64,000 bases of DNA from Aquila chrysaetos chrysaetos. Lineage: Eukaryota > Chordata > Aves > Accipitriformes > Accipitridae. The first letter of the stretch is position 1. Every line of letters begins with the position of its first letter. Shown here piece after piece: positions 9,203-57,614 of the stretch. The stretch is from contig NC_044009.1 in NCBI RefSeq assembly GCF_900496995.4, positions 8,340,001 through 8,404,000 on the forward strand. The letters run 5' to 3'. Below the pieces are notes generated by a model, which worked only from the letters and a program-made list of their open reading frames with translations, searched no databases and was not told the origin of the DNA. A program made the position numbers and the translations under genes.

Positions 9203-11074
9203 TTATGTAGGAACAACAATACTCTTGGCTAGCAAAATGAGAAGAGCAAGATCTGTGTTTCCATCCGCTTGTTCCAAAGCCTCAAGAGCTTCCCGCATGG
9301 TAAAACCAGCGCCGAGGATCCGATCAACATCAGCCGCAGGGAAAGCAGGTGGTGGAGACGCACCTGAGGTAGGTCCAGTATAGCCAGCTGATGGGTTCAG
9401 CAGTGGTTCCTCACACCCACCCAACGGCCACGGACCTTCAGGAGCAGAACTGCTGCTTCTCCTAGGTGCTGCTGCGAACAGGCTCCGAGTATCTTGAGGT
9501 GCACCTCCATCCAAAGCAGGTGCAGAGGAAATGGACAAGTTTTGCTCCAAAGTCGGACTAGTTGGACTCCAATAACCTTCTGCCAAAACCTCTGCCTGCT
9601 CAGAGCCCTGTTGCTGGTCAGATGTCGCTGCAGAATTCACCATGATCAAATCACTCTTACCTGAAAACTTCTGAATCTCTAAAGCACCTTCTCCGAGAAC
9701 AGACTGCATGTGACTGATAGACCCAGTGCTGATGTTTTCTATGCCAGAATCACAAGGCTGTTGCCCCTCTGCTCTTCCACCTTCAGACCTCACCTCATAG
9801 AAGGAACAACTCTGTTCCTGGCTGGCTGGATCTGAACCTTTCTGTTCATCTTCAGAAAGCTCCTTCTGCTGTGCTGCTGGCTCTTTGTGAACCATTTCCA
9901 GCTGAGAGACTTCTTCAGAGGCAAGGACTTTACATTCTCCTTTCCGACTGATAATCAAGAGTTTGTGAAGCTCTTTCAAGGCTGATGCTAAAGAGAAACA
10001 TGGCTCTTCTGAAGGTCTTCCTGGATCTGTGTCCAGCTGATGGATGCTGGAGGGGGAAGAGCTGTCTTCAGCCGCCAAATTAGACAACTTGTTATACTTT
10101 GCAGGAATTTCACTAGTGCTTTCAGACTGCGGGACATCACCGATGGAAAGCGGATCACTCAAGGAGGATGCAGACTTCAGTGACTCCACCTCCATGGAAA
10201 AGGCATCCACGTTCAGGTCAGATACACTTCTGTTCTCAGCCTGCCGCTTCTGCTCGCTTGCTGAGCTGTGCGCTTCAGCTACAGACTGCTCAACTACATC
10301 TATTTCCATGAAGGGTTCCGTATGCATACAGCTACAGGAGGCTGACACTTGGATACTCCCTTCTGGACAGGAATGACCTGCTTTCTCCTGTCCATCTCCT
10401 CTTGTTTCCGTAGGAGGATTTTCTGGCTGGCTGGCTTCTTCCACAACAGGTTTCTGAACCCCACCAACATGGCAAGGAGGTTCTGGGTCAGTTGTCTCAA
10501 TTTGCTCCTCCAGATGTTCCTTTTCTGGTTCTTTGCACATCTGATGGTCTATGGGAAGCTCACGCCTTTGCTCCTGTTCCACCTGTTCTGAAGACAGACA
10601 TACATCTTTATTTTGCCCGTGCTTAGCAGCAGTGTCAGCCAAACTATTTTCTTTTGTCACTTCCAAAAGGCGTTCCTGACCACGGTCTTGTTCTTTAGCG
10701 TTACATTCCTTTAGACTGTCAGCAATAAAGGTTTCTTTGAGTGTCTTCTGTGAAAGGCAAGCTGGATTGCAACAGGTTACCTCCCCGGTCTGGGGAGAAG
10801 GGTCGTTATTTGCCAAGGAAGCGTTACTGGAAAGATGCTGTAATAAGAGAGGATGTTCTTCTTCTGGGGTTATCTGGCATTCAGTTGAAGACTCAAAAGA
10901 CTTGACGGCTCTAGGATCAATGGGCTCTGCAAGGCTAGATTTGGATGAGCAAATTGAAGCAGGGGCAGAGACAGAACGATCAAGTAATTGATTTGTGGGA
11001 TTACAGATCTTGGAATTTAGTCCTGAAGACTGGACTGGATTTTGAAACCCATCAGAAGCTGGTAATGAGGGCAT
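9203..11074 (-). CDS. RSC1A1: RSC1A1-like reading frame (RS1) with C-terminal UBA domain
   Basis: An uninterrupted 623-codon frame recognisable as the orthologue of mammalian RSC1A1 (RS1). Its N-terminus [10 protein letters not shown] resembles the human start, and the last 46 residues ([10 protein letters not shown] to the terminal IVVPT) form a UBA fold with [12 protein letters not shown] and a [10 protein letters not shown] helix. The middle is acidic, rich in Ser, Glu and Gln, and looks disordered. Mammalian RS1 is described as an intracellular regulator of SGLT1 and OCT transporters that restrains release from the trans-Golgi network. In human the gene is intronless and overlaps the DDI2 transcript. 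Here the ATG lies 32 nt inside a well-formed splice acceptor exon that is in frame with DDI2 exon 8, so a stand-alone protein and a DDI2-RSC1A1 fusion are both possible. The frame is intact. Confidence 0.9.
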   Translation of the reverse strand: MPSLPASDGFQNPVQSSGLNSKICNPTNQLLDRSVSAPASICSSKSSLAEPIDPRAVKSFESSTECQITPEEEHPLLLQHLSSNASLANNDPSPQTGEVTCCNPACLSQKTLKETFIADSLKECNAKEQDRGQERLLEVTKENSLADTAAKHGQNKDVCLSSEQVEQEQRRELPIDHQMCKEPEKEHLEEQIETTDPEPPCHVGGVQKPVVEEASQPENPPTETRGDGQEKAGHSCPEGSIQVSASCSCMHTEPFMEIDVVEQSVAEAHSSASEQKRQAENRSVSDLNVDAFSMEVESLKSASSLSDPLSIGDVPQSESTSEIPAKYNKLSNLAAEDSSSPSSIHQLDTDPGRPSEEPCFSLASALKELHKLLIISRKGECKVLASEEVSQLEMVHKEPAAQQKELSEDEQKGSDPASQEQSCSFYEVRSEGGRAEGQQPCDSGIENISTGSISHMQSVLGEGALEIQKFSGKSDLIMVNSAATSDQQQGSEQAEVLAEGYWSPTSPTLEQNLSISSAPALDGGAPQDTRSLFAAAPRRSSSSAPEGPWPLGGCEEPLLNPSAGYTGPTSGASPPPAFPAADVDRILGAGFTMREALEALEQADGNTDLALLILLAKSIVVPT

Positions 11075-14000
11075 TTCCAGTGAGGTAGTTTCTTTGTCAC
11101 TATTCTCTAACAGAAGACAGAAAGAAAGAAGTAGTTAGGACACAGGAGAACCACTGTTTCCACTGTAGTAGCAAAAACTTACAAACCAATGGCTATAAAT
11201 ACCTGGTCTGTGGCCCACTCCAGCTGCAGTAAACACACACTACATGCATCAAGGCTTCTGACGTTCTGTTTGGATTAGGAAACAAACACACCAAACTTGT
11301 GTTAGCATTCAGAGCACACCACATGCATGGTTATAGTCCTGCGACCTCGCAGCTCCCCTCCCGACTGTCCATCAAGACAGCGTGCAAGCAGCAGGAGCTC
11401 CTCATGTTCACTGCCTTCCAGAAGGTGTTCTCCCTGGGAACTTCGTTACGTCAAGTCAAAAATAACTCTGCTGGAGAACAATTTAAAGGCTGTTCTGTAC
11501 TATCTACGCTGCAGAGTGGTCCGTGGGTGATACTACACACTTGATAAAATATACGCAGCACAAGGCACATGTCTAGCACCATACTGGTTTGTTCCATGTA
11601 AGGCTGAAGATACTCAGGAGGCACGTTTCAGGGAAATGAGAACTGAGATGGCAACACAATTCTTGGACTGTGCTCCCAGCAGTGCCATCACAAGCAAGAG
11701 AAGGTGAGCAAACACCAGCTTGCTGCAAAAGGGAAGCATAAAGATCCTAGTGTGAAAGGCAGAAATCTCCAAAAGGAACTGGGAAGAGCAAAGCAAAGGA
11801 AGAGACAGCCAGAAGTCAAACCCAGCTCACTGTTTCCTTCTCCACACAGAGAACAGATGAATTGCAGATCTCTATCAGTAGCACCAAACACTGGCTCTAG
11901 TTATCAGGAGAGATTAAATAAGTGAACTTATCTTGCTAATAGTCTAATCTTGCTAATGTATCAGCTCTCACGCTCTCCTTAAATCACTAACATGACCTTT
12001 TACTGTAAGAGTGCCTCTTCTTCCATTAAAGCCCTAGTCTGTCCAGTGTCAGTTATCCAGATTTTGTGCTGCATGATTTGTTGCATTAGTTCCCTTTTTC
12101 CCTTCACAGAGGCCTCCAAACTCAGTAGTCTTAAACATATACCACTGTTCTACCTTAAGTCTTTCTCTTTTTACAGATACCCAGGTGTACAGGGGGACAG
12201 CTAACCATGCTCACATGTACAGCCAGGATTTCCTTTACGTTCCACAACATGGAAGAAATCTGCCTTTTTCACCTCAGCTACTTGTTTCTTTTATTCTCCG
12301 TTAAATAAAAATGGTGCACTACATGCTGCGATAGCGCGCCTCTGATACACTTTGGTATAAAATACAGCAGCTGTTGCGCAGAGCAATCCCTTCTGTTCGC
12401 TGCACATCTGGTCTTAATGCAGCTACAACAACTTGGTAAAAGCCAGAATTATCCTGCAGATTTTCAGACTGCTCATCTTTCCTAAGGGTGGCAGAGAGGC
12501 ATGTGACACAGGATACGGATGAAAACTGGAGGGATCTTTTTCTATTTCTACACGGTAGGATTACGTTCACACTCTCTGCTCCCAAACCAATCCTTTAGAG
12601 AGGAAGCAGAACTGTCTTCGACTCAGTGGATTGGTAGTAAGGGTCTGATCAGTCAAACACATCAGGGATTTGCAGTCATTTAAGCTGGTATTCTGCCAAG
12701 CACTCCTCAGGGTCATCCTTCCGAGACCCTTTGTCATCCTCCTCCTGGGGTATCTACAGGAACTGAATCCCAGCCCCATCAAGGATATCGATCCACCTAA
12801 CACCAAGAACAAACCCTTCTCCACAAAGTGCACCATCAGGGATAAATTCCTCTCTATAATGGGAAAAGCCTGAGTTGCATATGTGGTGGCAGTGCCTTTC
12901 TCGTATCGAGGCTGTCTGGATGAAAGCTGTATATGGGGTAAACTACCTGAATACACTTACTCCTAAAGCAACTGTAGTTTTGCTGCCAGTTTTGTAAATC
13001 CTCCATAATCACCGAGTTTCCTGGTGGTGGTGGGAAGCACTGCATATTGGCAGAAAAGAGCAAGCTCTCAGACATAAATGAAGCAGACATGGAGGATCTA
13101 GATCACAGTAAAACATACCAGAACTCCACTACCACCTCAGCTGCCTTGCTGTAGGTGTTGAAACACCAGCAAGTCAGCTGACAGAAATCACGAGGTTTGC
13201 TAAAGTGGGCTTCCGGGGATTAAATAAAGCTCAAGAATAATCCAGGTGCATTCAAAACAAGAACTTTAATAGCCTACAGATGTATGCAGCGATTTCTGTT
13301 GTACCATCTACCAGAAGGCAGCAAAAATTCAAGCTGTTATGACAGAACACAAGCCTTGCGGGGAGCTGAGCTTCTTTGGTCCTGCATTACATTCTCTCCC
13401 TCTCCAGTTTCCTGTTCTTTTACTTGGTTTTCCTGGTACCATCTAGCAGCAGCTAATAGTTTTGGAAGAGAGGAAGAGGGTATACGTTAATATTCTGACA
13501 TCTTAGTATATAGCCTGTGCACCAGAGGCTTGCAATATGCCTAAGACTTAGACGCAGTCAACCTAAACAAGACCTCCCTTAGTTTTGTGCACAGGTGTTC
13601 TACAAGCATTAAGTGAATACACAAAACGAATTTCCCATTCTCATAGATCTTTTACATTCCTCTCGGGCTCAGCACCAATGGAAAACGGTAGACTGCTGAT
13701 TAGTCTGAACAAAGCCATGTGGTCTTTAGAATCGTATTGGTACACAAACAGCTTTAAGTCATTTTAGGCACTTTTCATTTTAAAGCACTCGACTAAAATG
13801 CTTTTATTGTAAAGATTCACATATTTTGGGCCAAGAGGTTTGCTTTTTATTTGACCCTTTCAGCAGAGAACTAAGTCCAACCAGCTGTGATGTCTGCAAA
13901 GTCTCATCTGAAATGGAGAGATACTGCAAAAACCAACCGAAGCTTCATCAGGCTCAAAATTTTAACAGGGAAAGAACTAGTATTTACATCGGCACATTTT

Positions 14001-17000
14001 CTCTGCCAGGTTATGTGAAGAGACATGAGCCCAAGCTACCAAGTCCAACCTTTAGTGATATCAAAACCTGTTAGGGGCAAGGTCAAATCTATGTTTGTGT
14101 TTCTCTCTACTTGCTGCAGCTTCAGTTAATAAGCATTCAGATTTGGCTTTAAAAGTCAAACATGCAAACTGTTTCTTGCTGATTCATTAAAACCAAGCCT
14201 TCCTCTCGAGGTCTCTGCATCTCTGGAAAACTTATATTCTTAGAATGGAAGAAAATTGGTCAAAGGGACCAATAAGTGCAGTCCCGTGCTCCCCTTAACG
14301 TAAACAACTTAGTTATTTGCAAGTAAGTCACTGCTTACGCTTTGGACTATCAAGCAGCAATTGGGAAGTGTTAAAGAAAAATGTCAGTGCATTACAATTG
14401 GTTATATATATATATGGTTAAATCTGGTTATCGCACTTCAATTTTAAATATGGGCATGCTAAGAGTCTTAAAAAATTAGCAATAAAAATGTTGAAGAAAT
14501 CAACTTTATCAGCTTAAACATGACCCAGCAAAGAGTTTTGCATGTGTCTGGGAGCAGAATCTTACTGCGTGCTTTCAGAGGAAAAATTAGCAGTAAAACT
14601 CAAAAGTCTCTACAAAACACTTGCATATAAAATGTTATCTTCCAAAATTTTGGAAAAGGCATAAGGAATACACTTTGTGAGGTATTCACATCTTCACTGT
14701 AATAGTGCGGAAAAAAAATAATGAAGCTTTCCTTTAGTCAAAAGTATATGCTTAAGTTAAGGGAGGAGTTAAACAGAAAATCTGAGTTTCAGACAGTTTA
14801 GCTGAGCTATGGCTCAGCTTTCAGCTATTTTGGCATCTCCACTTAACTCAGTTTTGCAGCTACCAAAATCTTCCATAGCCCAGTGAGTCTGCATTTGTGC
14901 AGCTTATGGGTTCCAGAGGCACAGGGAACAAAACTACAGGGATGGTGAAAATTCTCTTTGCAGATCACATTTAAGGCTGAGGATATACATTAGGATGTGA
15001 ATTCAGGTGTTTCTTTTGAAATTTGGAGCAACAGTAATCTTCAGCAAGAGAAGTAATTCACCTTCCAAGAGCACAAGCACCATTCTAAGGAAAAAATGCT
15101 GAAATAGTACTATTTCTAAAAATTTTTATGAACTTTTGCCCAGAGATTTGTACACTGCTACAGCTCCTCTATTTTTATATGCTGCAGCTATTAAGAACAG
15201 GATTTGTGGAAGCCTCTACAAAGCTGTCCTTACATGAGGCTGCTAAAATATCACACAACTGAACCACGTCCCTGACCAGGCACTACAACTCAACCCAGGT
15301 GATCGGGTGCCAGAGACAACCGTTTATATCCACACCTTCGAAGGCCAAGAAAACAGAGTGGGTAGGAAGTTGCAATGAGAGCACAAATTAAACAGCAAGC
15401 ACCCCTGAATGCCTTCATGCAGACAAATTTTGCTGTACAGAAAGGAAGACAGAAGTGCGGTTAGAGGCCATGAGCAAGAATAAAGCCCCTTTCTCTCCAC
15501 TGTTTACTCGCTGATGCTGCATTAGACTGCGTCTCCTAGGAGTTGAGAAGGGGGACTGCTGACAGACAGCCCGAGGCACAGCAAGAAAACTATGCAGATT
15601 CAATATTTCAACTGGGCTCCTCCTGGTACCTGCTTCCTCTACGGACTTCTGTATTGCTTCTGCTAGTTCCTGGTCTGCAATCTCCTCTGGCCGCACATCT
15701 TCCCGCCCAGCCCCATAAGCCAGCCGGGCACACTCTGGGAGCTCGCCCTCCGGGAGGAAAGTGGTCTGTGAGCCAGTTGTGCCGATCACTAGTACATTCT
15801 TCTTGAGATCAATCGAACACTGTGAAAGAGCATTGAGACATCAGGGGCCTGCGTAAGAGCCAGTCAGTTCCCGGAGAAAAAGGAGACACAAGGTTAAACA
15901 ATCCATTTCCAATGGGAACAGCTCACAGCAGCTACGCGTGGGCCAAGAGCATCAGCTATAAGCAAAGGGCCCTGTATGACTTCATTTGTAATAAATCATT
16001 CAGCTGGAAAGCTCTGAGCATCTCTGATCTGAGCAAAAAAATTCAGGGAGCAGCCAGATATCCTATAGCTATCCATGATGTACATAGTGTATTGTACTTC
16101 TTTCATAACTGGCTGGAAGGTAATCCACCATCAACTCTCCCCAGAAAAATCCTAATAAATTCACAGGCAAAGGCATTTACGTTGCACTTAGCACCTAACT
16201 TGGAAGAGCCTGTAACTGCTTCAAAAGAGTTTTTGATACCTGATGCCTCTTTAGCATATCCAGTCCTAGAAGCATGTCCATGGGCTGCTCTTCAAGGATT
16301 GAGAAGGAGCACGCCAGGAAATCCCCTTCAATCTGGACCTGAGCTGAAAAACAAGGGAGAGAAGTTACCACCTTGCAACACTGCAGCGCAACAAATCTAC
16401 TTTCTGCTCTTCCATCTCCTGGGAAAAGTCTGCACAAACCTGCTGGGCAAATCTGAAACCAGAGCTCTGACGTACTGTTTTGGTCACAGAAAGTCTAGCC
16501 CTGTGCAAGCTGCAGGGACTACCCAGGCCTGCCTTGGTCTCAAGAAGTTAATTATTTTAAAGGCTGACCTGCTCTAGAGCCTTAAGTACTGCTTATCTAA
16601 CCCTCCAAGCTAGCGGAGCTGCGTACAGCTCATTAGAGCGCAAGCCTAAGAAGCAACAACAGTGAAGAGAATCGATTTTTCAGACAATAAGGACAATCTT
16701 CTCTCATCCAGAAAACCTGCACGAGAGCACAGCCAGCCTTCTCTTCCCAAAGGAGTATGAATCACTCCACTATACTGGAACCCTTCCTGAGCAACTCATA
16801 CTGCCCAACAGTCCCACCCCAAACAGGAAAGATCCTGCTATTTCACATTAGCCCTGTTTTTTGCACCCAGAGTGAACACATCCTGAGCTGAGGACTCTCT
16901 CACCTAAAAATGTTAAGGTAATTCCATTAAAAAAGGATTAAATGAGACAGAAGCCAGACTACTGTGCCCGAGACAAACGAACATATTGCAGATGTACTTT

Positions 17001-20000
17001 TATTTTACTCTGCAGGAGTTTCTAACAATTATAGCATTAAACCAGATACTCCTTGGTGCCAAGATTGCGGGAAATGCAGCCAAACTGCCACTACAGCTGC
17101 CCCAAGAAGAATGGCAGTACTCACCTAAGTGCACTCTGCCAATTATTTTCTGCGTCCCTACACCTTTAGCAATGCCAGCCCACCGCCGATCTACCAGTCT
17201 CATAATGTTGCACCTTTCAGCACAAGCTTGGCTCATGATGGTCATCTGGGCACCTACCAGCAACAGAATTCATGTTAAATCCTGACAGCCATCACAAATT
17301 AAAATTCTCTCCTGGAAGGGCTTAAGATCTTGCACTCAGCAGCCGGGAAACCAACCCGCTTGCATCAGGCAACTGCATCAGGGCATGAAGGCTTCCCGTG
17401 AATCCCACTGCGTTGAATTGACTGTATACACACAAATCAGCACTAACAGTAAAGTACGTATTAGTGTAGAGCTGGAATAACCCCAAGTACTTTCGCTTTA
17501 AGGCTGTGGATGGGAAGCACTGCATTAAAAGCATGTGAAATCCCCCATCTGTAAACTGAGATAAGGCACACATGTGGCAGTGACCCTTCTGGCATCAGAG
17601 CCCCAGAAATTCTCACAGGAGCCTTGATCTGGGGTGTTCAAGGACTCACGTGTGCTGCTTCTCACAAGTTTGCTCTGTTCGCCTTAAACAATGCCCAGGC
17701 TGCTTTCAGGTTTTAATTAGGTGCTTCAAAATCCTGTAATGCAGTGCTTTATTACGGAATTTTTGGGAAAAACTTCTGGAGCATTTACAGTCTCCCTCAG
17801 TGAAGGAGAGTGCAAAGAAAGAGATGAAAATGGGGGCAATTCACCTGAGTCAACAAAGGCTTTCACAGGATGTCCATTGACTTTGCAGTTAATATACAGC
17901 ATCACCACCTGGCCAAAACTCTCGGGGGCCTCTTCCATTGCTATCGTCATATTTTCTTCAATGTTTTGTTGCCTGAATTTATCGGAGAAGAGAGAGAAAA
18001 ATCAGACCTTCCATCAGCCAAACCTTATAAGCATCCCTCCGACTTACAAACAGATCTGGTAATCCCACCCGTTGCAGCTCACCTTACAAACAGCATGTTT
18101 AAAGCACAACAAAGACTGCCTCATTAGCTAAACACAGGCTTCTCGGCAGAGGGATTGCTAGTAATGATCTTGGCTTAATCCAGAGACACCAAGTCACTCC
18201 CCAGCAGCCATGAAGACTGCTCCTTCCAACACCTTGCCTAACTCGCACTCCAGCTTCTGATGACCTTTTCTTTGCAACAGAAATCTGTCACCACACAGTT
18301 AACCTGGAAAACTTGTGAGCAAAAAACCTGCGTATTTATTAGTCACTCTAAAATAAAGCACTGAGGGCACACGATGAAGATGTTGCCAGTAGCTACAATG
18401 CTGGAATCCCACACAGGAGCTGAACATTAAAATCCTCCAATGTTTCCCTGGTATCTTTCCTTTTCCAGGCATAGGAAGGGAGGGAGGGGAGCAAAACGGC
18501 AGCGAGAACACCACCATGAGCACAAGCCCTCGGTGCAAATTCAAGCCTACAGAAGAAACACTCCTCAGGAAGCCCATCACGGCCCCTACAGTCATCTTGG
18601 AAGTGATGGGTATCCGTAGCGACTGCATCCAAAATAGCTTTATCTACCAAAAAGGGAAAAGGGCTTCCAATTTTGATGCCATTTCATTTTTCCTCCTCAG
18701 TAGGGGAAGGGAAAAAACCCCAAGCTCCTCTCTTATCCATCTTCTGTACTGTGGTAGCTTTCCCACAACAAGATGGGTAGACATGGCTTCTTGGTGGGGG
18801 AGGAAAATGGCTAACGGCATCCAAGACCTGGCTCACTTGGGAGCTAAAGAGCTAAAGTACCCTGCTGCCCTACTGCCAGTCTGTCCCGCTTCATATAGTC
18901 GTGAAACAAAGAGCCACACATTGTCCTGCCTTTATTACTTAAGCTTAAATCAGATATGCAGTGGTTAATCTTCAGTTTCAGTTCTCTTGTCAAATCTATT
19001 ATTCTGTTTTCTCTGTGCTCTCTCCACTGGAAGGACAGAGACGTGTCTCAAAAAATACGATGCTTGCAATAGCTTCCAGTCAATCTTTGGCAGAGCGCAT
19101 CTAATTAAGCAAGATGTTCAGAGAAACTAAGTGGGGTGTGAAATCTGGGGACTGCTAGATGCCCAGACTGTTCCCTAACAGCTGCACAGCCTTGGGCACA
19201 TCACCTTTATCTGTCCCCTCATCTATGGAAGAAGGAAAGCGTTCCTGTGCCTCTGAGCAATGTTTTGCTATCTACAAACGTGTATTCTTCTGCATTGCTA
19301 AGTTAAGCATTTATCCAGCACCAACACCTTGTCAGTCATAACGCAAGAATGACTGTTACCACAAATGAATTTTGGTTATGACCAGCTATGAGCCTGTATC
19401 AGAAAGACATTTCATTATTGGGTAAAAAAAACACCAGTCATGTTCTGACTCAAGGATTTCTGACTAAATTTAAGAAATCAAGCCTCAGCCCAATGCAATT
19501 ACATTTGGAAGACAGCAAGATGGAGCGAGTGCTAATGAGCAGAACGTATTTCTTTAGAACATCTCTTCTGACAGAAGTGATGTTCAGAGTCTGGAATTCG
19601 CCAGAGAGGCAAAACAATTAGCAGTACGTGAAACCAAATCTCAAAGGCAGCTGGGAGAAATGACACCACATTGCTGTGCAGAGAGCTCAGCTTAGAGACT
19701 AGCACAGGCCCACCTCTCCAGTTCAAAACACGTCCGAGGCAACCAAGTACCACCTCTCGAGGATCTTGGCTAAGTGCTTTCCACAAGTGCTCTTGCTTCA
19801 GAGTGGACCGGCTTAGACAGCTCTGGGACATCACACGCATGGACAGCGGTGCTGCCACCTCGTGATCTGTGCTTAGCTGGATGCATCTAAAGCATGGGGT
19901 GCGCCTACATGTCGCTGAATCCCAACCTTCCCACATGCAAAGGTGGCTCAGAGCATGGCCCTGCAAGCAAATGTGTGTCTTAAGGGAAGATCTAAACACA

Positions 20001-23000
20001 CTCCTTGCATCCTCCAAGGAAAAAGCACCATGGATGGAAGCACCCTGTGGAAAAAAGAGCCGTGAAGACCTCCAAAGCCTGCAAGTGACTTTGGTTTGCT
20101 ACCTTATGTCTTCTTCTATCTTGGCCTGTGCCTCGAGATCAAAAGGGTCAGCTGAATAGAGTCGGATCCTCTCCTGCTCCCGCCGGGCTCGGTCCTGCTG
20201 TTGCTCCAGCAACACCCTGGTGAATTTCTCTGCAGTGACATGGAGACACAGAAATGCTTTTTACTGGAAATTACTCTTACAAGTCAAGTTCTGGCACAGC
20301 AAACTCTTCTTTTTATGCCAGCATGCTCTCAGGGGTAGACTCAGCAGCACAGGCAAAAAAGGCTTCCTCTGAAGGCAGCAGGGATGGACCTCAAAGGATT
20401 GGTGGCAAACTTGGGAACCCACTGAGATGAAAAGCAACTGGACAGAGCCCTTTCTCCTCGTGTCTGCTACCCAAACTCAGCACAATCAAACTCAATTTCT
20501 TTGCATGTACATTTTTATATGGAAGAAAAATGGAAAAAAACATGAAGACAACAATATTTAAAACAAAGAGCTGCCATTAAAACAGGAATTCATTCTTCTA
20601 CTGCAGCAAGAATTGCCTATGCAATACTTCAAAAAAAAAAAAAGCTGCAAGAACAGCAGATAAATGAGACCCAAAGCAGAAATCCAGACTACAGAACCTG
20701 CACAATTCAAACAAGAAGCTTGAGTGCACATGTATTTTGAAGAAGCTTCAGACAGAGCTAGAAGCGAGATTTCATAGCTCTCAGTGAGATGCCCCATCTA
20801 CAAGAACAGCTTGCAAAATCTATCACGTTTTACACTCAGCAATCCCTGGAAAAATAACAGCCTGTAGATCCAGCAAAGAGCAAACACAAAATTGTAAGAC
20901 ATAAAAAGGCTAACAACAAAACTTGCTTTAAACCCAAGCAACATAGGCAAAGACAGAGACATTATAATCCCTGAAGGTGAATACCTACCACTGAAATCAA
21001 GAGGTCCTGGGTGGGACACCTGCTTCACAAAGTCTAGCCGCATGTTTTAAGGACACAGATTTTAGATCCCCACTTTTTGGATGGCTTCTGTCTAATTTCT
21101 ACTGCTTGGATGTGATCACGTACGTTCCCAAAAGGACTTGGCAATAAATTAAGTTCTGTAAACACAGAAGGTTGTGGGTTTGCTTCCAGAAATGCAGTTC
21201 CCATGAAGAAGCTCTCTGGCTCAAAGGCTGTTGTTATATATTCAGGAAGGCATTGGGTATTTTCTTGTTTGTTTGTTTTTTTTTTAAATTAGGCTTCTGT
21301 ACAGCAGGTGCCTTCTAAAGTGCTTGCCGTGCATCCAGCACAGTCATGTGGCATGTATCTATGCATATATTTGGGCATCAGAGCCAGAGCTGAACTGGAT
21401 CTGTGCCCAAATACTGACACAGTAGCAGTACAGAATGATGAGAGCATAACCAGATCAAACCACTTCCTTCTGACAGCCCACTGCGGCGATTTGGGACTAA
21501 AAACGCACGTCTGATTCAAAGTTTAATGTGCACAACAAGACAAGACAGATCAGCGGATAAGCCAGTTCTGGGTGTCTTGGGCTTAACCTCTCATTTTCTG
21601 TGCCAAGAGCAGCACATCTTCTCAAGGTGATGGGAAAAACTCCTGCACTACGGACGCAGCACTTACGAGAAGTGTGAAGAAGCTTGAGAGCACAAAGGAC
21701 ACGGTTTTAAGTCTGGATATGAACTAAAGTCAGAATTAAAAAATGAAATAAGCTGACAACATCCATGCAAGTTCCTTTCTAGCTTCCTTTGACCGAGAGA
21801 AATCACTAGGATGTAACCTTGAAAGAGGAAAAAAAGTCTTCTGCTAGAAGCTCCTCCTCTTCATTCATTTCCCCAAACTCAACAGGATTTATTTCCTAAC
21901 TAAACATCTTGCAGAGGTTTAGAAGCACATCTTCTGATGCCCAAAATACCACTCTGTTTTCATCCTGAAAGGACACTAGAGTTCAAAGCTTTCATCACAT
22001 GAAGAATGAGGGACCAACATCAGCTACTCACCTGCAGAGGAAGTGAAGGACATGACACTAGGCTTCAACTGTGCTCAAAATAAGTGAACACTTTCAAGAT
22101 TAACAGAAACTTAAACATTTACGACTTATGACATTAGACACTATTTGCTTGTTTCTTTTCCTCTCCCTTTCTGACGTCCACTTCCATAGCAGCTAATCAT
22201 TATGGACAGAGTTGGTTTTATAGTGTACTGCTCTCTACTGAGGTCTCAGTGGGTTCTGGGATGCAGCAAACACAATACCATTACTGAAAAATGTGCATTC
22301 GGAGAGTCTTGGCATAAAAATCGGGAGCTGAACCACTTGTGTTCCCAGAAACTCGACTTATCTGTGCGTCTGATATTTCAAAGTAGGGGATAGAGGATAT
22401 TAAAGAAGGTAAGCAGGAGAAATACGCCCAACTCGCCAGAAACGGTCTTGTTAGAAGGAGAGGTACTCTGCCTTGGGTACTCCCAACTGGCACCTTTTAT
22501 CAGCATCATCAATGAGTTGGCAGTGAACATCCCAGCTAGTTAAAAACCTGTAGCTGCCTTTTATTAGAACTGAGCTCAGACAGACTTAAAACCACCTCCC
22601 GCAGATTAAAACCCCAACTTACCAAGGTCTCCACTGAGCAACGCTTCCGCCAAGGGTGGATTGCGCTCCTTCAGCAGGGACAGCTCGTGGGGATTCGCAA
22701 GCAACATCTCCCGTAGCAGCGCCGGATTGTCCAAACCCTGAGGGAACGAAGGTGCATCGGGAGGTGACGGGCGAAGACGCTGTGCTGGTGGCTGGTGCTG
22801 CTGAGTGGATGTCCCAGGAACTGCGATGCTGCTGAAGTCTATCCTCGGCAGACCTTGAGGGAAAAAGAGGTCAGAGGTGTTGGCACTTCACGTTTACAAT
22901 TCTGCTTGAAAAACACAGTGGAAAAACTGTGGGAAGGATGAGCCGCTCTTAATGCTACAGCATTAGACCGGATTCTGTGAATAGCAATTTGTGTCGGAAG

Positions 23001-26000
23001 CACGGCCATGTACTCAGGTTACTGGGTTAGGAATGCTAGCATGTCTTTACGTAACTGGTCTAGCCTTCTATCTGGCCCATTTTTTTATCCCTTGAAATGC
23101 ACTTACTGAATCGCAGACTAGTTATTTCCAGCTTCACAAATGTGAATACCGCACGGAGAGATCGCAAGGCTAAACCCAGTGTCTCTAAGGCACTTCTGAA
23201 TCTCTCAGATTAAAAAAAAAAAAAGCAGGGGAGAGAAAAAAAAAAAGTAACATTTCTGCAGACCTGCATTGCAGGTACCCATCCTCCAGCTGAGGCAGGA
23301 GGATGAAGACCTCAAGCAATGCTCCCACACCCTTCTCAGCCAGCAGTACCTTCTTTTCCAGCAATATTTTATGATGGGGATTTGCTAGGAATTGCTGCAG
23401 AAGGCAGGACAGAGGAGCAGGGCTCCACTCAGACGTTATCGGAGGAGTCTTTCACACATATGCACGGTTGCTTAACTGGGTTTGTCAAGACATGGCTTCT
23501 CTGGGTATTTGTCACAGCACAGATTCAGAGCATTGATACAGCCTTTTAATGTGTCTGAGCCGCACAGACTGCATATTACTGCGCCATTACTCCAAGTGGG
23601 AAGGGAACCAGCGGTCGTATGAAAATTCACACACCTTTACAAAAACTGCTGTTCTGAACCAGTTACCTTTGTTGCTTTCTCTGTATTTCCCAAAAACAGC
23701 AGTAAAACAGTATTCGCTTTCTCAGAATTAAAAACCCCATTACATAACAAGCCCTTTAGCCAATTTTAAAAGCCCCCAGCCTCATCCCCAGCTGCCCTCC
23801 CTTCCTAAGTATTTTGCCTAGCAAGGTACTAAAGGAGACTGACAAGAGACAGAGTCGGTGTTTGATAAATATTGAGATCTTTGCACGCTCAGAACAGAAG
23901 TTAGCACAAATCCTTTCTCACCTGGGAAACGGATGGAGGGCCGTGGCTCTACGGTCTCCTTCTGTCGCAAAATCACCACGTCCCCGTCTTTCAAGCCATA
24001 GGAGGCCAAAGATCTGTTGTTGTCAGTTAGAGGCCGCTCTGCATAGACTATCTGTTCATGGAGAGAGTGCAATGAAAAACACCACGCGTGACAAAGCAGA
24101 CAACATCTTGCTTTTAATTTTGCTTTTTTTAGGAAAGCGTTCCAGTAAATCCTCTGGACACATCTCAAGCTTCAGAAGGGAAGGTGTGCAATTCTCACCA
24201 CAGGCATGGGCAGGCCCTGCCAAAGCACCTCTACCTCAGGCACAGGAAGACCTCACTCAACCAGTAAGTGGCTGGACAGGAACATGGAGTTGGGCTTACC
24301 GAAACCCAGCAATGGTTTCTTGAAACCCAGCATCTTGGAGAAGGGCTGATCTCTCCTAATTAGTGGCCAAGATTATTAAACAAAAGCAAGCCTTACACCA
24401 GGGCTGTTTGCCACACATTTCCAAAATCCAATCTCTACGATTACACATGTCACGGACGACTTCTACAGCATTACCTGCCCCCAAGTCAGCACCTATTGAC
24501 CAAGGACTGACTGCACATGTGCAGGCAGCATCGATCAGGGTAGATCCATGGATGATCCAGTCCCATATCTATGATCTCTGCCTTTTCCCACAACATGGTT
24601 CCCCAGAATAACCAGTTTTACAGGGACCTCAACAATTAGCTCAGTGATTTCCAGTTTACTTCAGTGATGAAACTTGAAGGTTCAGCACCCAAAGACACCA
24701 CTCCCAAGACTGCAGTCAGTCCATGGCAGGGTATTAACTTCTTTTGACCATAAAACACAGTCACATCATTTTCTATTATGATAATCTGACTTAACAAGGG
24801 TTCCGCAGATTAAACATAAAAACATATTGAGATAAAAATGACTAATCACCACAGGAACATTTCTATTAACATTAGATCTATAATACCTACAAGATGTCCT
24901 AAATTACAGGGAAGCAAGAAAAATAAAACAAAGACATGCTTTACAGGAACAAAAGTTCCCAGAAATGGTATCTGCTAAACTTTAAGGTTTCTGTGCCTCC
25001 ATCGGAGTGCAACGAGACTATGCAGATGGGTTCAACAACCTCCTACCCCTGGCAGGAGTCCAAAGCATGAAGCACTGGAGAACTCGGCCTAAACCCCTCA
25101 GGCATATGATCGAATTTCACGTTTACCACCCTGTCTAGCAAGACCGCGTCTCTCTGGGTCTGGAAAAGGCTGGTTCAGCAGCAACAGGTTTGCCGCAGGT
25201 CAGGACTGGCAGAGCCGCGTGGGAGAAGCTTTTGCAGTCCTTGCATGGATGGGCTATGGCTCTACCCGATGCTATCGCAAGTAGCAGATCCAAAAAGAAG
25301 ATCCAAAAAAACCCCAAACACAATTACTATGCATCTTAAGGTCTGGAAGATGTTACAGACTTTCACTGCTTTACTCCAGCAACTCAGAAATATTACACAG
25401 AATCTCGCTAATGCATTCTAACAGTGGAGATGCATCGTCAGCAGTGGTGCCAAAGTAAGATAAGACAGAAAAAGCAAAAATAACAAGAACCACGTACAAC
25501 AGCAATCAGAGCCATCAGAATTAGAGAAACACACACGATTAGAAACAAGCACGAGCTTCCTACCTTCTCATTAACGACACACTTCACAGCCTCAGCAGTA
25601 TTGCACCAGACTGGGTCCCTTCCAAAGCAAACACAGGTCCGTTTGCAAGCTATATTAAGGCGTGCGGTCTCTACTCTGATGGTTTGCAAGACGTTACTGG
25701 CATAATTAAGGTTAGCTTGTGATGGGAAGAGTCCCAGCACATCCTCTCACGTTACTGGGCGCGTCCCACCCGGCCTAACTCAGTGATGCCGCTGCCCGCA
25801 GAGAAAGCAAGCTTGTAATAAATCCCAGCTGCACGTGCAAATCTTAAATGGCAGTTTCCCTGCGTAGACGCTCTGGAAGAGACAAGTTAATCAGTTTAAG
25901 TGAGGTTTTACCTCTGTCATCTTGCTGGGAATGGATTTGTGAGCATTCAGCCTTAAACACCTCAGACGATGAATTAAGCGCCTGGCTCTCACTCTACATC

Positions 26001-28825
26001 CATTATCAGCATGGCTTAATACGCTTTTGACCCATTCTGCTCTGCTGTTAAAACAAACTGATTTAATTTTGCTGCATTTTCATTATCTGGTTTGTAGCAT
26101 ATTTTTGTAGGCTGGCCAGGCACTGGACATGGACTCTTCTGGAGGTGACCTGGGCAGGGATGCAGGCACCGATACTGCACGATGGTTGGATTTTGCATGA
26201 TGCCATAGGGTAGAACGTCCTCATGGAGCAAGGAACCCCAGTCAAGACTGCTAGATAGCACCAGCAATCGTAAATCAATCCAAACTCAGGACCTGTTAAA
26301 TCTTCCTGTGCACGGCCACGCACAGCCAAGGACAGGAGATGCATGGCGTGTAAAGAGAAACGAAGGAAATAAACGGTGCTGCCAGAAAAACGCGGTTCTG
26401 CTGAGAGCCTCCCTGTCCCCTCTCCGGAAAAGCCACCACCTCGATGCGTGAAGGAAACCGCAGTGAGCTGAATTATTTCCCCTCTCCTCGCCCAGCTCCT
26501 CTTATCACCACAGCCTGCCAGCAGCCGTCACCGTTATCTCATGTCGCCCGCCCCGCCTTGCGACCGCAACCATCCCTCGGAAACCTCGCAGCCCCCTGCT
26601 CGCCTCCACCCCAAACTGCAGCACCGGGAATTAATTTCATGAAACAGCAGAGAGTAAGACTGGGATTAACCCTCCTCCACATGCAGCCATGGTTTACTCC
26701 ACCCTGCACAATCATTACTATTAAATTCATCCTCTCTTTTGTGCCAACATGACATCTTTAACACAATGTACGCCTTGGTTACGGAAAAACATCAGTAAAC
26801 CACCAAGTTTGGTAAATGTAATACTGCCTATTTGTGGAGGATGGTTTAAGCATGCAAAATCCTTCTATGCAACAAGCTGCTTCACTGATAGCTTGTATTC
26901 TTATAACTTTCTCCCCACTGAAGGTCCTCAAACTACTTCACAAATGCTGGGCAGAAACAGTAGAGAAAGGAACAATAAGTACACAGCTAGAAAACATGAA
27001 AAGAAATGAAGCAAAATGATGCATAAACGGCAGATGGGTGAGCAGAAGGAAAGCAGAGGTGGCTACAAAAAGCACAGCGCTGATCCCTGTTACCTGCAGC
27101 TGACATAATCACAAAGCTCCGCAGCAGTTTAATTGCAAAGGCAGGGAACTCCCAGGAAAACATAAGCAGAAAAGTCCGTGACCCCTCATCATCCTAAAAT
27201 AGACCCAGAGCTGGCGGGTTACTGTGACGCAAGGGGGACAAAGCTGACAACAAGGAGTTCATGCTCCACGCGCCCAGAGATATTGAAGCCACTGTGTGTT
27301 TGTGGTGTCCCACGCATAGAGACTGTCCCCATTACTGGCCGCAAATTTGGGTGCCTCGCTGGTGGCTGTGATGGAGACATGGGGTGTTTGCTGGAGTGTA
27401 GCAGACAGGAACCTTTATATGAAGTTGTTTCTCTCTTTCTACCTACCAAAAATCAAGTTTTTCCCCTAAAGGAAAATCTACCTCATCTTCATTTTCTACC
27501 CCTGCTTTGGAGACTGCTTCCCACTCAAAACCAACCTCTCATCCCAAAATAAAAGGCTCGCCGAAGGCAGAGGTAAAGCAAAACGCCACGGGTGAAGCGT
27601 CGGGAACCTGCTCGGTGAGGGAACACGTCCACCTCAAGGGCTGCCAGTTCAGCAGTTCTTCCATCGCTGACTAACATTTGCTTGACTGGAAAAATACTTT
27701 ATTAATTTACACTTGGAAACGGCTCGGGAAGCAAAAGCGATCCCCACAAAACTCCACAAACTCTGCCAGAGGTGGCCAGCACCCTGAGAAAAGGCGCTGA
27801 CATTGCCCTGTCCAGCAACGCTTCACCCCTGCTGAAAAACAGGTAGAAATCACACAGGGAAAAAAAAAAAAAAAAAAAAGCAGGACTGAACCCAGAACAC
27901 TGAGGAAACCCCAGACGGACGGACAGACGGACGAGAGCCGCCCCCACACCACAGCCTGCCTCGTGTTTTGGCATGCTTGCGATGATTGAGCCCCGAATTT
28001 GGGCCGGAGGGGGATCTTTGGTGGGGGAAAGCAGGCGGACACAATGTTTGGTCCCCGCACCCATATGGAAAAAAAAAGAGGGAGGAAAAAGCCTCCATCT
28101 GCCTTTTCTGCCTCAGACCCGGGCAGGAATTTGATACGGTAAATAAACCCTTTTCTGAACATTTCAGCCTCATTCCCTGTGGTTTGAGGAGACCACGGGC
28201 CACCACCTTCCCCGCTTCTCTAGCTCCCATTCCTCCCACTCCAAATCCTTCCCCGTCTAAACATGGAATTCCTCTGAAAACTCAATAAACCCCCCCCTTT
28301 TCCCCCTCCCCTTCAGCTCCACCGCGGGAGGAGACCGAGCCTTTCCCGGAGGGACCCCGGTAAGACATCGAGTCATCGGGGACCGGGAGTCCTCTCCGGA
28401 GGGGAAAAGGAGGATTTTAAGGGAAAAAACGACGCGTTTCTCCACAAAACCCGAAAGTTCGGCACGGGGAAGGCCAACCGCTCCCCCAAATAACCCCCGA
28501 ACTCCGTGATCCCGGCGGGGCGGAGGCCCCGGGGGCTGAAGAGGGGACACGGGGACACACACACACACACGCATACAGCCGTTCCCAGCCCAGAGGACCC
28601 CCACCCCGGGGGGGGGAGGGGAACGACCGGGCCCTTCGCCGGTCCTCGGGGCGAGGGGGGGGGGGCGGTCGGCGGGCAGGGCCTGACCTGGCTCTCGGCC
28701 GCCGGGATACCGGACTCCAGCTCGCAGAGAGCTCGGAAGTTTTGCAGTTCGAAGTCGGCGTCCACCTGGAGGGAGAAGGTAAGCTCACTGCGGTCGCGGC
28801 GCAGGCAGAACACGGTGAGCAGCAT
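9203..28825 (-). CDS. DDI2: DDI2, ubiquitin-directed aspartyl protease, nine coding exons
   Basis: Protease of the DDI1 family that cleaves heavily ubiquitinated substrates such as NFE2L1 and shuttles cargo to the proteasome. Coding exons, all with GT-AG borders and matching phases: 28688-28825, 23922-24051, 22623-22853, 20103-20229, 17845-17972, 17125-17253, 16240-16343, 15630-15819, 9203-11106. The UBL domain is residues 1 to about 77; the helical domain about 105 to 205; the retroviral-like protease about 225 to 350, with catalytic Asp250 in FVDSGAQ. Exons 1-8 give 392 residues, nearly identical to human DDI2 (399). Human ends with a few more residues from a short tail. Here I found no equivalent short exon; the only strong acceptor (11107-11130, pyrimidine-rich, ending TTAG) continues in frame into RSC1A1, giving 1026 residues with a terminal UBA. 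The start is the ATG opening MLLTVF, as in human. Exons 1-8 are near certain; the fused end is inferred. Confidence 0.88.
11107..15629 (-). other. DDI2 intron 8 (4.5 kb)
   Basis: The intron between the classical DDI2 C-terminal exon and the RSC1A1 exon. It has a good donor at the exon 8 side (CAG then GTACC) and a strong acceptor at the other. It contains a (TA)n run near 14405-14414. Around 12640-13090 the minus strand shows protein-like reading split between three frames (see findings). No short exon matching the human DDI2 terminal codons was found by eye, but a very small exon could be missed. Confidence 0.6.
15820..28687 (-). other. DDI2 introns 1 to 7
   Basis: Non-coding DNA between the first eight DDI2 exons. 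The largest piece is intron 1 (24052-28687). Homopolymer A runs occur at 23211-23224 and 27860-27879. No nested gene, RNA gene or recognisable transposon was seen. A 221-codon plus-strand frame at 15912-16577 is antisense to exon 7 and has no recognisable feature. Confidence 0.6.
28555..28570. repeat. (AC)n microsatellite in DDI2 intron 1
   Basis: Eight uninterrupted AC units in the CpG-rich start of intron 1, directly after a GGGGACACGGGGAC stretch. Confidence 0.85.
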
Positions 28826-29723: not shown

Positions 29724-30034
29724 TTGAAAATGGAATTCATCTCGAATTGAAATCATTCCACCGCGGGGGGAGACAAACATGGCGAACTCGTCAAGGGAAA
29801 ACACCAGAGGCATCACGGTTCTGGCTCTGCAGACACTTCGGCAACAGATTTCCCCCCAAAATTTCATTTTCTTTCCTACTAATCCCTCTTCCACGTGTAA
29901 AAATAAAAAAGACCAAACGCAAATCCACAGCATGTCTGGCACCTACCAGTTCTCACACGGTGACCAACGAGGGTCCCGAGCGCTGCCCGTCCCTGCCTGG
30001 CGCTGCGGAAAAGGCTCTTCCTCCCACAGGGAGC

Positions 30035-34967
<4,933 letters not shown>

Positions 34968-41300: not shown

Positions 41301-44300
41301 CTGCACACCCTCCACCTGCCTCGTCCACACCTGCTTCCTTCCTGAGGTTCTCCTCGAGAGCAGACAGCTTGAGATCGTAGTGATTCCTCAGGCTGCTGAT
41401 GTCCTCTTCGAGGCGGGCACGCGACGCCTGCTCTGCTTCGTAGCTGGCCTTTAGTTGGGCCAGCCTCTCCTCATACTCCTGGAAGGCACAGCAGACAGCC
41501 TGACGCAACAGCCCTGTGACCATACACAAGGTCACATCCAGGTTCATTCTAGGTCACATCTTATGTCCACCCCAATAAAACTTTACCATCCCATATGCAC
41601 TAACTTTTTCTGTGATTTAAGTCAACACAGTATTGATGGATGGTGACTAGTTAGCCCTAGAAACCACTATCTTGGGCAGATGTGGTGACCTGGAAGGAGC
41701 TTTGTAAAGAGCAAGGAGAGAGTTTTATTTCTTTCTGGCCCCCAACTCCTCATTCTTCCTCCTGGCTCCATATCCCCTCTTTATCTTCATCCTTATACTG
41801 TTCCTAACATCTTCTGACTACTGCTTTCCTCCCCCTTATTTCTCCCTCCTCTGACTGGAGGAATCAAAGTTTTACATGTAGTTACTTCAAAAATTCTTCT
41901 TGGGAACCCATTCCAATTCATCTCCAGAGAGGTGGGAACAATGCTGAGAGAAAGTGGCGCTGTAAATAAGGCCTTCATCAATACACATTCTGTCCATAGG
42001 AGACAAGGACCAAAAAATAGGAAGATAAGTGCTCTGAAAAGGCTGAACCATGCAGCCTTACACCATATTTGTAATGATTATTATAAAACCCCACAAGCCT
42101 GAGTCAAAGACGCTATGGGATGCCCCCTCCTGCCTTACTTCTCTGATCAGCTGCTTCTCTGCTTCAGGATCTAACTGGGGTTTGAGGAGGGGTGCTGGCT
42201 TCGCTGCCAGGTGAGCAGTTTCAGCAGGCAGAAGCCCTGCAAAGCAAAGCAAAAATAAAAATCACTCACAATTACTAGGTGGGATTGTCTGTAGAATGCC
42301 TGGAAAAAGAACAAAGAATGTGGCTGCCAGCAAATCCTTTAAACTGCGCTCACGTGTCAGCATCTGTGTTGCCAAAACGCCCACTGGCCTGGGACTCCAT
42401 AGGTGTGGGGAGAGGCGTCAGCACTGAGCCGAGGGGGAGAGGTTTAAGCTTCAGGTATATGAAAGCAAATATAAATCCAATCTCTTTCACAAAATAGCAG
42501 GAGACTTGTTTCCAGGGCTATGCTAATAGATTTGGAAGATAAAAGACATGGGGGAAGGAGATGAAAGGTGCAAGGAAATTGCCTTCTTTCTTCACAGCTG
42601 TTTCTGAAAGGTGGCAGAAAGGCGGGGGGAATAGCTTACAGCCTTATTGCTTTGCTGAAAGTTGCCCCTTTTTAGGGGATAATTCTCAAAAGGTGATCAG
42701 CTCCCTAAAGACTGCTCTCACCCATTTGTTCCCATATTTGCTATTCCTACTTCATAGCAAAGAGCAAGTCTGCTGAGGCTGGGCTGAATCCTCAAAGAAG
42801 GGACAGTGCTGCTCTCTGTAAGCAGTGCCATCAGTGGGGAAAAAATTTTCTTGTAGTGTCAAAGATTCACAGTTTAGGAGAACAGGGTTGAATGCTAACT
42901 TTGAAAACAAACATATATATTTAATAAAGAATTTTACATTATTATTTCTTATGCAGCTCATTTTTGCTCTGCCAGCTGAAACCTCGCTTCTGTGACTGAC
43001 CAAATTCTAGCCAGAATGACCAAGAAGAATCAAGGATTTGAATCATGTCAGCATTTTCTAACAGAATTTGTCATTATCGAAAATACTGGATAATTGAGAT
43101 GGTCTTTACCAGTGGAATAAGGTCAATTTGGCAACGGTGAAGGAAAAGTCCATTACCAGAATGGAGAACTCTTCCTCCAACAGGTAAGGAAAAGGTTGAG
43201 GTGAAATCCAGTGAGCACACATGTAAAAACCACATTTTTCTGTCAAAGAACAAAACATCTCTGGAGCCACTAAGGGCTTTCTTACCTGACAAGTTATGCG
43301 CACTCATCTGTTCAGCTAGAATGGCCTTCAGCTTCTTAATCTCCTTCTGATACTCCCTCAGCAGAGCATCCTTGGGGTCCTCATTGATACAGGGCTTGTT
43401 CTTGATGTTTTTCGCTCGATTAGCATAGCGCAAAGTACTGAGGCTTTCATCATAGTTGTTATCAGCTGGAGATAAGCATGCTACCATCAGGGTCTTGGTA
43501 TTCCCTCCGAGGGAGTCTTGCAGTAGCCTGGTCAGCTTTGAGTCTCGGTACGGGATGTGCTTACACCTGCCATCAACCAGGGCTGAAATGACGTTGCCCA
43601 GAGCTGAGAGGGAGAGGTTGATTTTCGTGGCCTCTTTGAGCCGCTCTCCTGTGGCTCCAGTTTTTGACTGTCTCTCGCTTCCTGCCAGATCCACTAAATT
43701 GAGTTTTGCAGCCCTGAGGTGGTCCTGCCCTTGCTCATCTGCAAGAAAATAATTCCGGCTTAGGCTCTTCTTAAGAGGAAGCATCTTAACAGTCAAGAAA
43801 CCGGATTCTCTGGCATTACGTTCCAGTTCAAGCCCTGTTTTTTGTCTGCATTTGGGCCCTGACTCCCTTAAGTAAATAAATATCTACTTAAAGAACTACA
43901 TGTTTTAGTGCTTTCCTGAACAAGATTCTGCACAGTAAAAATTCATGCCCATTCTTACTCTCCCAGTGAGCTCTGAACACACACACACACACACACCCCC
44001 CTCCACATATTTGCACAGATGCTGAGTGTTTAGAATTTCATGCAAAGCCCTCTGCAAGTAACAAGGTCAGACCATGAGTTTATACAACTTTTTTCTCCTT
44101 AGATTGTTTCATGAAGTTAAACAATGTCTGATAATTGGAGAGAAAGAAGGGAGGAAGCATGAAATGAGGAGTTAATGGGCAGCAACTGGAGCAGGGCTAG
44201 TTGGAGAGCACAGGCAGAAGAGCAGGCTCCCTGAATGCCCATGTGACGTGGAGAGACAGGCAGGAAGATTACCTCTACAGACTACCGTGGAAAGGCTGGA

Positions 44301-53266: not shown

Positions 53267-57614
<4,348 letters not shown>

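Follow-up and report, generated by a model that had tools for sequence, protein, structure and literature searches.

Yeast Ddi1 consists of a UBL domain, a helical domain, an RVP protease domain and a C-terminal UBA, and its S. pombe ortholog, Mud1 (PMC5028754), is without the UBL. The DDI2 of human and other vertebrates, a protein of 399 residues, has been described as having no UBA (Siva et al. 2016, PMC4962041; Trempe et al. 2016, PMC5028754; Collins et al. 2022, PMC9062259), and one of these three papers asks how a UBA-less DDI2 binds ubiquitin. Siva et al. located the UBA of DDI2 in RSC1A1, which they saw as a gene inserted into the DDI2 locus. One review loosely groups DDI2 with the UBL–UBA proteins (PMC11799193), and the processing of Nrf1 by DDI2 needs long polyubiquitin chains (PMC12765900), which fits a ubiquitin-binding tail on DDI2. 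We describe the DDI2/RSC1A1 locus of the eagle Aquila chrysaetos chrysaetos in a window of 64,000 nucleotides (nt), the whole stretch of DNA that was analyzed (NCBI RefSeq assembly GCF_900496995.4, contig NC_044009.1, positions 8,340,001 to 8,404,000). We conclude, with a probability of roughly 0.86, that RSC1A1 is the 3'-terminal coding exon of a single DDI2 gene, whose alternative C-termini are produced by the choice of acceptor after exon 8.

The gene structure and the reading frame can be followed directly in the DNA. DDI2 exons 1 to 8, from the ATG to the exon 8 donor (Table 1), have GT or AG at every intron end, and exon 8 closes with GAG GAA GCA G followed by gtacca, as read in a first-pass annotation made from the sequence alone. 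The RSC1A1 exon follows a TTAG acceptor at 11110–11107, opens with AGAATAGTGAC at 11106 and runs to a TAA stop at 9205–9203. The phase-1 donor of exon 8 and this acceptor give an in-frame join with no stop before the TAA. The joined protein has 1026 residues (3081 nt including the stop), 392 from exons 1 to 8 and 634 from the split codon and the last exon, in agreement with the first-pass annotation. It matches, with 100% identity over 100% of its length, the NCBI entry "protein DDI1 homolog 2 isoform X1" of the same eagle (P0001, the representative of a cluster of 26 sequences). The 634-codon open run is not a product of chance, because in 1000 order-1 Markov sequences with the length and dinucleotide statistics of the exon, the longest open run had a mean of 106 codons and a maximum of 243. 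Read from its own ATG, the eagle frame is 90% identical to condor RSC1A1 (P0034); it differs from RSC1A1/RS1 as usually understood in being a 3' exon of DDI2, in carrying 11 extra upstream residues, of which ten are well conserved, and in lacking a conserved start.

Three protein searches, each represented by its best 120 matches ranked by likeness to the query, yielded 345 distinct proteins. A protein was scored by script as joined if the exon 8 motif was followed by more than 250 further residues and its last 62 residues contained a UBA core. Each row stands for a cluster or an isoform and not for a species; rows were sorted into ray-finned and tetrapod by name, with the fish-like P0260 counted among the fish. 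Among the matches listed, 134 of the 345 were joined, so that the C-terminal UBA that the first-pass annotation had proposed to look for in bird, reptile and fish DDI2 isoforms was found. The joined rows include bowfin, gar, sturgeon, paddlefish, salmonids, cyprinids, characins, catfish, percomorphs and one frog; turtles, a crocodile, lizards and many birds; and, with the same junction, platypus, opossum, bilby, dugong, cattle, buffalo, whale, seal, lemur, Aotus, Chlorocebus and Nasalis. The usual junctions are of the type EEA/ENSDK in birds, EDA/EKSGKETTSLGM in placentals and QES/DTADGQTTSPQP in teleosts, and a (T/S)TS motif follows the junction in 128 of the 134 joined rows, at an identical offset in 123. 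The join had been thought special to this bird lineage and lost in mammals; neither view held, as joined rows run from bowfin and gar to monkeys, and platypus, opossum, cattle, lemur and monkey models share the junction. A decayed acceptor in mammals was ruled out on the protein models, which have EKSGKETTSLGM or EKSGKESTSLGM at the placental junction. Among the matches in the three 120-row lists there was no row named as shark, coelacanth, lamprey or invertebrate, and the origin of the join is therefore bounded no deeper than the bony vertebrates. When viral contigs were searched for RSC1A1 DNA of other species, no relative was found.

Conservation around the junction was measured on an alignment of 20 hand-picked amniote long forms. 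The ten residues before the RSC1A1 methionine (393–402) had a mean pairwise identity of 0.886, against 0.399 for the linker (405–976; window median 0.371), and only one of 563 ten-residue linker windows, located in a conserved ALKELHKLL segment, equalled the junction value. Of 52 tetrapod rows, 42 have the RSC1A1 start methionine, and of 76 ray-finned rows none has it; the ten tetrapod rows without it were from Pogoniulus, Rhea, bilby, opossum, Anomaloglossus, Phrynocephalus, Pogona, Anolis and Paroedura (two isoforms). Two bird records of RSC1A1 itself (P0069 and P0097) have a threonine in its place. An independent gene would be expected to have a conserved start codon of its own, and RSC1A1 does not. 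In ray-finned rows the next methionine is often close, with a median of 95% of the exon product retained, so that the missing methionine by itself leaves room for another start there. On the protein sequences compared, the joined frame is more widely kept than a separate RSC1A1 start. The joined frame, the conserved junction and the non-conserved methionine support the first-pass view that RSC1A1 is the C-terminal part of DDI2 and not independent in origin; its own addition to what was known, that DDI2 and RSC1A1 are one coding unit joined by splicing, was likewise upheld by the data.

The long form has the domain order UBL, helical domain, aspartyl protease, long linker and UBA that had been predicted for it, the same as in yeast Ddi1. 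Residues 1–76 match the human DDI2 UBL (PDB 2n7d, E = 2.1 × 10^-39), and PF00240 is found in the identical P0001; the helical domain matches 5k57 (E = 3.3 × 10^-47) and the protease 4rgh (E = 5.7 × 10^-96). The catalytic D250, S251 and G252 were unchanged across 20 aligned sequences. The UBA family PF00627 matched the full-length eagle protein weakly (E = 0.0024; 18.1 bits, the cut-off being 22.4), and the last 50 residues alone at 23.6 bits, above the cut-off; at E ≤ 1 it was found in all 13 of the tails chosen, which ranged from birds to fish. When a UBA profile built from the 13 tails was run against 177,635 PDB sequences, the best single domains were those of yeast Ddi1 (25.3 bits) and Mud1 (23.5 bits). 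A second profile, from 20 tails including more fish, gave Mud1 23.9, Ddi1 23.7, Ede1 (YBL047C) 19.7 and NUB1 15.2 bits. The non-vertebrate side of this comparison consists of PDB chains of two yeasts.

An AlphaFold2 model of the 634-residue exon product, made with 15 aligned bird sequences, had a mean predicted local distance difference test score (pLDDT) of 37.9, and its sole well-predicted part was a three-helix bundle at residues 591–630, with block means of 79–86. Foldseek returned 84 matches at E ≤ 10, of which the 50 displayed were mostly UBA or UBA-like domains, including the Mud1 UBA (template modelling score, TM, of 0.84–0.88 by target; root-mean-square deviation 0.6–0.7) and the yeast Ddi1 UBA (TM 0.78). 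Nothing matched at E ≤ 0.001, because the model is mostly disordered, and we take the Foldseek result solely as support for a UBA fold. Within what 40 residues can tell, the UBA is of the Ddi1 kind, being nearest, among solved structures, to those of Ddi1 and Mud1 as single domains. The eagle protein differs from both in having about 580 disordered residues between the protease and the UBA, in placing the UBA behind an optional splice, and in an AGF instead of LGF or MGF in the first UBA loop; it differs from vertebrate DDI2 as given in the literature in carrying a UBA at all. Within the linker encoded by 11106–9203, residues 764–776 form a segment conserved in amniotes amid fast-evolving sequence, with the fish counterparts ALKELHKLL (P0260) and ALRELHELL (P0213). 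The segment has an LxxLL-like core and is likely to be a binding motif.

Other ends are reached from the same exon 8 donor. The first-pass annotation had correctly placed a real, in-frame acceptor at 11107–11110 but had taken it for the next usable one; those at 13453, 11266 and 11224 come earlier, each matching database isoforms. The acceptor at 11266, 159 nt upstream of the RSC1A1 acceptor, reads aaacag/AACGTCAGAAGCCTTGA and leads to ERQKP and a stop, and short tetrapod DDI2 isoforms end in ERQKP, EHQKP, DQQKP and the like. Eagle exons 1 to 8 with this end correspond to the short DDI2 of human and other vertebrates, to which the 4rgh, 5k57 and 2n7d structures belong. In a transcript spliced this way the RSC1A1 frame falls in the 3' untranslated region, which would explain its appearance as an intronless gene inside DDI2. 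The sequence AGVGHRP/ENSDKE, from the 21-nt cassette and the RSC1A1 exon, is continuous in P0026, and likewise in P0046, P0054, P0064 and P0120. Two further splice sites were noted. The RSC1A1 acceptor is a tandem, TTAG/AG/AATAG (11110–11105, minus strand), in which use of the AG two bases downstream would lead to ...EEAE-stop; a 2-nt slip there would turn the long form off. An acceptor at about 15432 (minus strand) in intron 8, tgtacag/CAAAATTTG..., appears to be used in Lagopus and Leptosomus isoforms (P0124 and P0167, AKSVC..KAFG) and would give yet another DDI2 end.

Table 1. Features of the DDI2/RSC1A1 locus, in window coordinates.
Feature	Position	Strand	Remarks
DDI2 exon 1	28688..28825	-	ATG at 28825, UBL domain begins; donor CAG/gtcagg; GC 0.70 and CpG observed/expected 0.81 around it
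DDI2 exon 2	23922..24051	-	
DDI2 exon 3	22623..22853	-	
DDI2 exon 4	20103..20229	-	Helical domain; PDB 5k57 match, residues 114-210
DDI2 exon 5	17845..17972	-	Protease, catalytic DSG; donor gtgaat
DDI2 exon 6	17125..17253	-	Protease
DDI2 exon 7	16240..16343	-	Protease
DDI2 exon 8	15630..15819	-	Protease end and UIM-like segment; PDB 4rgh match, residues 204-358; phase-1 donor G/gtacca common to the alternative ends
Alternative terminal exon 9a	13337..13452	-	Acceptor 13453; AAARWYQ...RKACVLS-stop, CaaX C-terminus; ATTAAA at 13270
Alternative end 9b, short DDI2	11249..11265	-	Coding part ERQKP-stop, first base of E from exon 8
21-nt cassette AGVGHRP	11203..11223	-	Acceptor 11224, phase 1-1, donor gtattt; 96-nt intron 11202-11107 follows
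Exon 9c, RSC1A1 exon	9203..11106	-	11 residues and RSC1A1 frame (ATG 11074-11072), disordered linker, UBA, stop
C-terminal UBA	9206..9346	-	Residues 980-1026 of the long form

A number of observations speak against the one-gene reading. The joined proteins are mostly predicted isoforms, the 15630–11106 join in the eagle and other birds is known here from gene models, not from reads, and coding constraint on the junction was judged from protein sequences alone. Joined models might be annotation artefacts or rare read-through, neighboring frames having been merged by pipelines and the merger spread between species by homology; some models do join elsewhere, the six joined rows without (T/S)TS being two landfowl, alligator, hamster and two cichlid models. 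We consider this highly improbable. The fish-like P0260 has all 914 residues of its long form within a 2922-base contig; the contig is too short for introns and must be either a spliced transcript or a copy of one. Conservation is higher at the junction residues than in the sequence around them, and the joined rows were drawn from NCBI, UniProt, EukProt and a contig source.

In one of the protein searches, 72 of the 120 best matches were RSC1A1-type proteins of fewer than 700 residues with no DDI2 part, and work on SGLT1 treats RS1 as a protein in its own right (PMC7462918). These matches and the RS1 literature would agree with the published proposal (PMC4962041) of a nested, intronless RSC1A1 gene that is independent of DDI2, has a start of its own and acquired the UBA when it was inserted into the locus. 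This scenario, which we put second after the one-gene reading, is unlikely in view of the joined frame and junction residues kept from bowfin to primates and the methionine missing in all ray-finned and ten tetrapod rows. There is no CpG island near 11100, at the eagle RSC1A1 start, where CpG observed/expected is 0.28 compared with 0.81 at DDI2 exon 1, a result that covers CpG-type promoters. Nor is an insertion needed, as the joined forms range from 689 to 1201 residues with a linker of highly variable length.

The bird-like, transcript-like P0046, P0054, P0064 and P0120 (78–86% identical) reach the 11106 acceptor from the 9b exon, and in them a stop precedes the RSC1A1 frame. In eagle DNA their sequence is split by the 96-nt intron, so the 11106 acceptor would be used in bird RNA, if the genes are built alike. 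The rows imply such transcripts in birds and in this speak for a third explanation, which is compatible with the one-gene reading as far as the long form is concerned: amniotes would make both the spliced long DDI2 and a separate RS1, the latter from a methionine gained in tetrapods, on transcripts entering by the 11265 acceptor with the 96-nt intron removed. The presence of the methionine in most tetrapod rows and the study of RS1 as its own protein lend this some weight. Efficient translation of the RSC1A1 frame after the ERQKP stop on one mRNA would be unexpected, and the methionine is missing in opossum, bilby, Rhea and several lizards; we regard a dual output as possible but rather doubtful. 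The last two adverse points concern the UBA. By whole-chain score, NUB1 ranked above Ddi1 with the 13-tail profile, through two UBA repeats of which the better scored 18.0 bits, and the AGF loop means that ubiquitin binding by the predicted UBA may be weak.

The single-gene reading also accommodates the terminal exon 9a, whose tail is identical in isoform X4 of Accipiter gentilis (P0189). Among the 345 proteins, 15 have such a tail: four birds, a gavial, three turtles, tuatara, a skink, two lizards, two geckos and a python. They end in CVLS, CALL, CVLL, CVLQ, CILL, CVIF or CILA, and in their alignment the cysteine is the sole invariant column, with the leucine at −2 nearly so. The eagle exon ends in CVLS, as does H-Ras, and in the versions of the gavial and several squamates the CaaX is preceded by basic residues, as in other CaaX proteins. 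All 15 tails are database models, and they were first gathered by their cysteine at −4; a control profile was hence built without the last six residues. It matched 14 of 129 short tails, all 14 with a cysteine at −4 (P0189 lay outside the 129 as cut). The profile recovers its own members by construction; what is informative is that every similar tail has the cysteine. A cysteine at −4 occurs in 16 of the 345 proteins, the 15 tails and turtle P0201, which was excluded as a model of another kind. No fish, frog or mammal row within the 345-protein set has the exon 9a end. In alligator P0036 the exon 9a sequence does not end in a CaaX motif but continues into the RSC1A1 exon.

From these tails we predict a prenylated DDI2 isoform in sauropsids. 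The closest parallel is the proteasome-associated AIRAPL/AIP-1, in which a CAAX motif serves for association with the endoplasmic reticulum (ER) membrane (PMC11799193); like the exon 9a form of DDI2, AIRAPL is a ubiquitin–proteasome protein with a UIM and a CaaX end. The exon 9a product differs from H-Ras and AIRAPL in being an isoform of the DDI2 protease, and in that its prenylation is a prediction. NRF1, the substrate of DDI2, is itself an ER-anchored protein.

The link between the UBA and RSC1A1 is already known (Siva et al. 2016), and the 1026-residue isoform exists as an NCBI gene model. In the open-licence PMC literature, to judge from the papers as listed, only Siva et al. 2016 treat RSC1A1 and DDI2 together; no paper there contains DDI2, RS1 and SGLT1 as whole words. 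By title and start of abstract, no paper among the matches listed for DDI2 isoforms or splicing deals with the present subject. Neither a vertebrate DDI2 that keeps its UBA by alternative splicing, nor a conserved sauropsid CaaX end, nor a tie of DDI2 to CAAX or prenylation was found in that literature, within the parts of it that were available.

On the one-gene reading, splicing to the 11265 acceptor yields the short DDI2, with the RSC1A1 frame left in the 3' untranslated region; splicing to the 11106 acceptor yields the long DDI2, in which a UIM-like segment and about 580 disordered residues stand between the UBL, helical and aspartyl protease domains and the UBA; and splicing to the sauropsid exon 13452–13337 yields a DDI2 that ends in a CaaX box. 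The vertebrate version of the ancestral UBL–protease–UBA protein is then the long form, which has kept its UBA at the far end of a linker that has grown in length and evolves fast. While gene structure, frame, conservation and domain identity are shown by the sequences, ubiquitin binding and the occasions on which each end is used are inferred. Most likely, the UBL would sit on the proteasome and the tethered UBA on the ubiquitin chains of the substrate, while the protease dimer cleaves it; the short form, having no UBA, would likely depend on weaker contacts.

Elsewhere in the window, upstream of DDI2 and on the same strand, lie the OST48 middle domain of DDOST (29943–30662, minus) and kinesin motor exons (43074–43883, minus). 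Degenerate minisatellites at 54282–54574 and 34469–34794, with 41-nt and 61-nt units, are overlapped by long open frames on both strands, which are probably not genes.

Gene models from fish to mammals already contain a long isoform whose UBA is of the Ddi1 type, and the question of how DDI2 binds ubiquitin thereby becomes directly testable. The conserved CaaX exon, in turn, predicts a membrane-bound form of a protease with an ER-anchored substrate, NRF1. A broader view, on which we are evenly divided, is that the exon 8 donor acts as a three-way switch, directing DDI2 to ubiquitin chains (UBA, in bony vertebrates), to membranes (prenylated CaaX, in birds, crocodilians, turtles, tuatara and squamates) or to neither (the short form). 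The Ddi1 UBA would then never have been lost in vertebrates, the effects of RS1/RSC1A1 on SGLT1 would be effects of the DDI2 C-terminus, and membrane-anchored DDI2 in sauropsids could act on membrane substrates. A mouse knockout of RSC1A1 was reportedly made by Osswald et al. in 2005; if RSC1A1 is indeed an exon of DDI2, studies of RS1/RSC1A1, this knockout included, may have altered DDI2.

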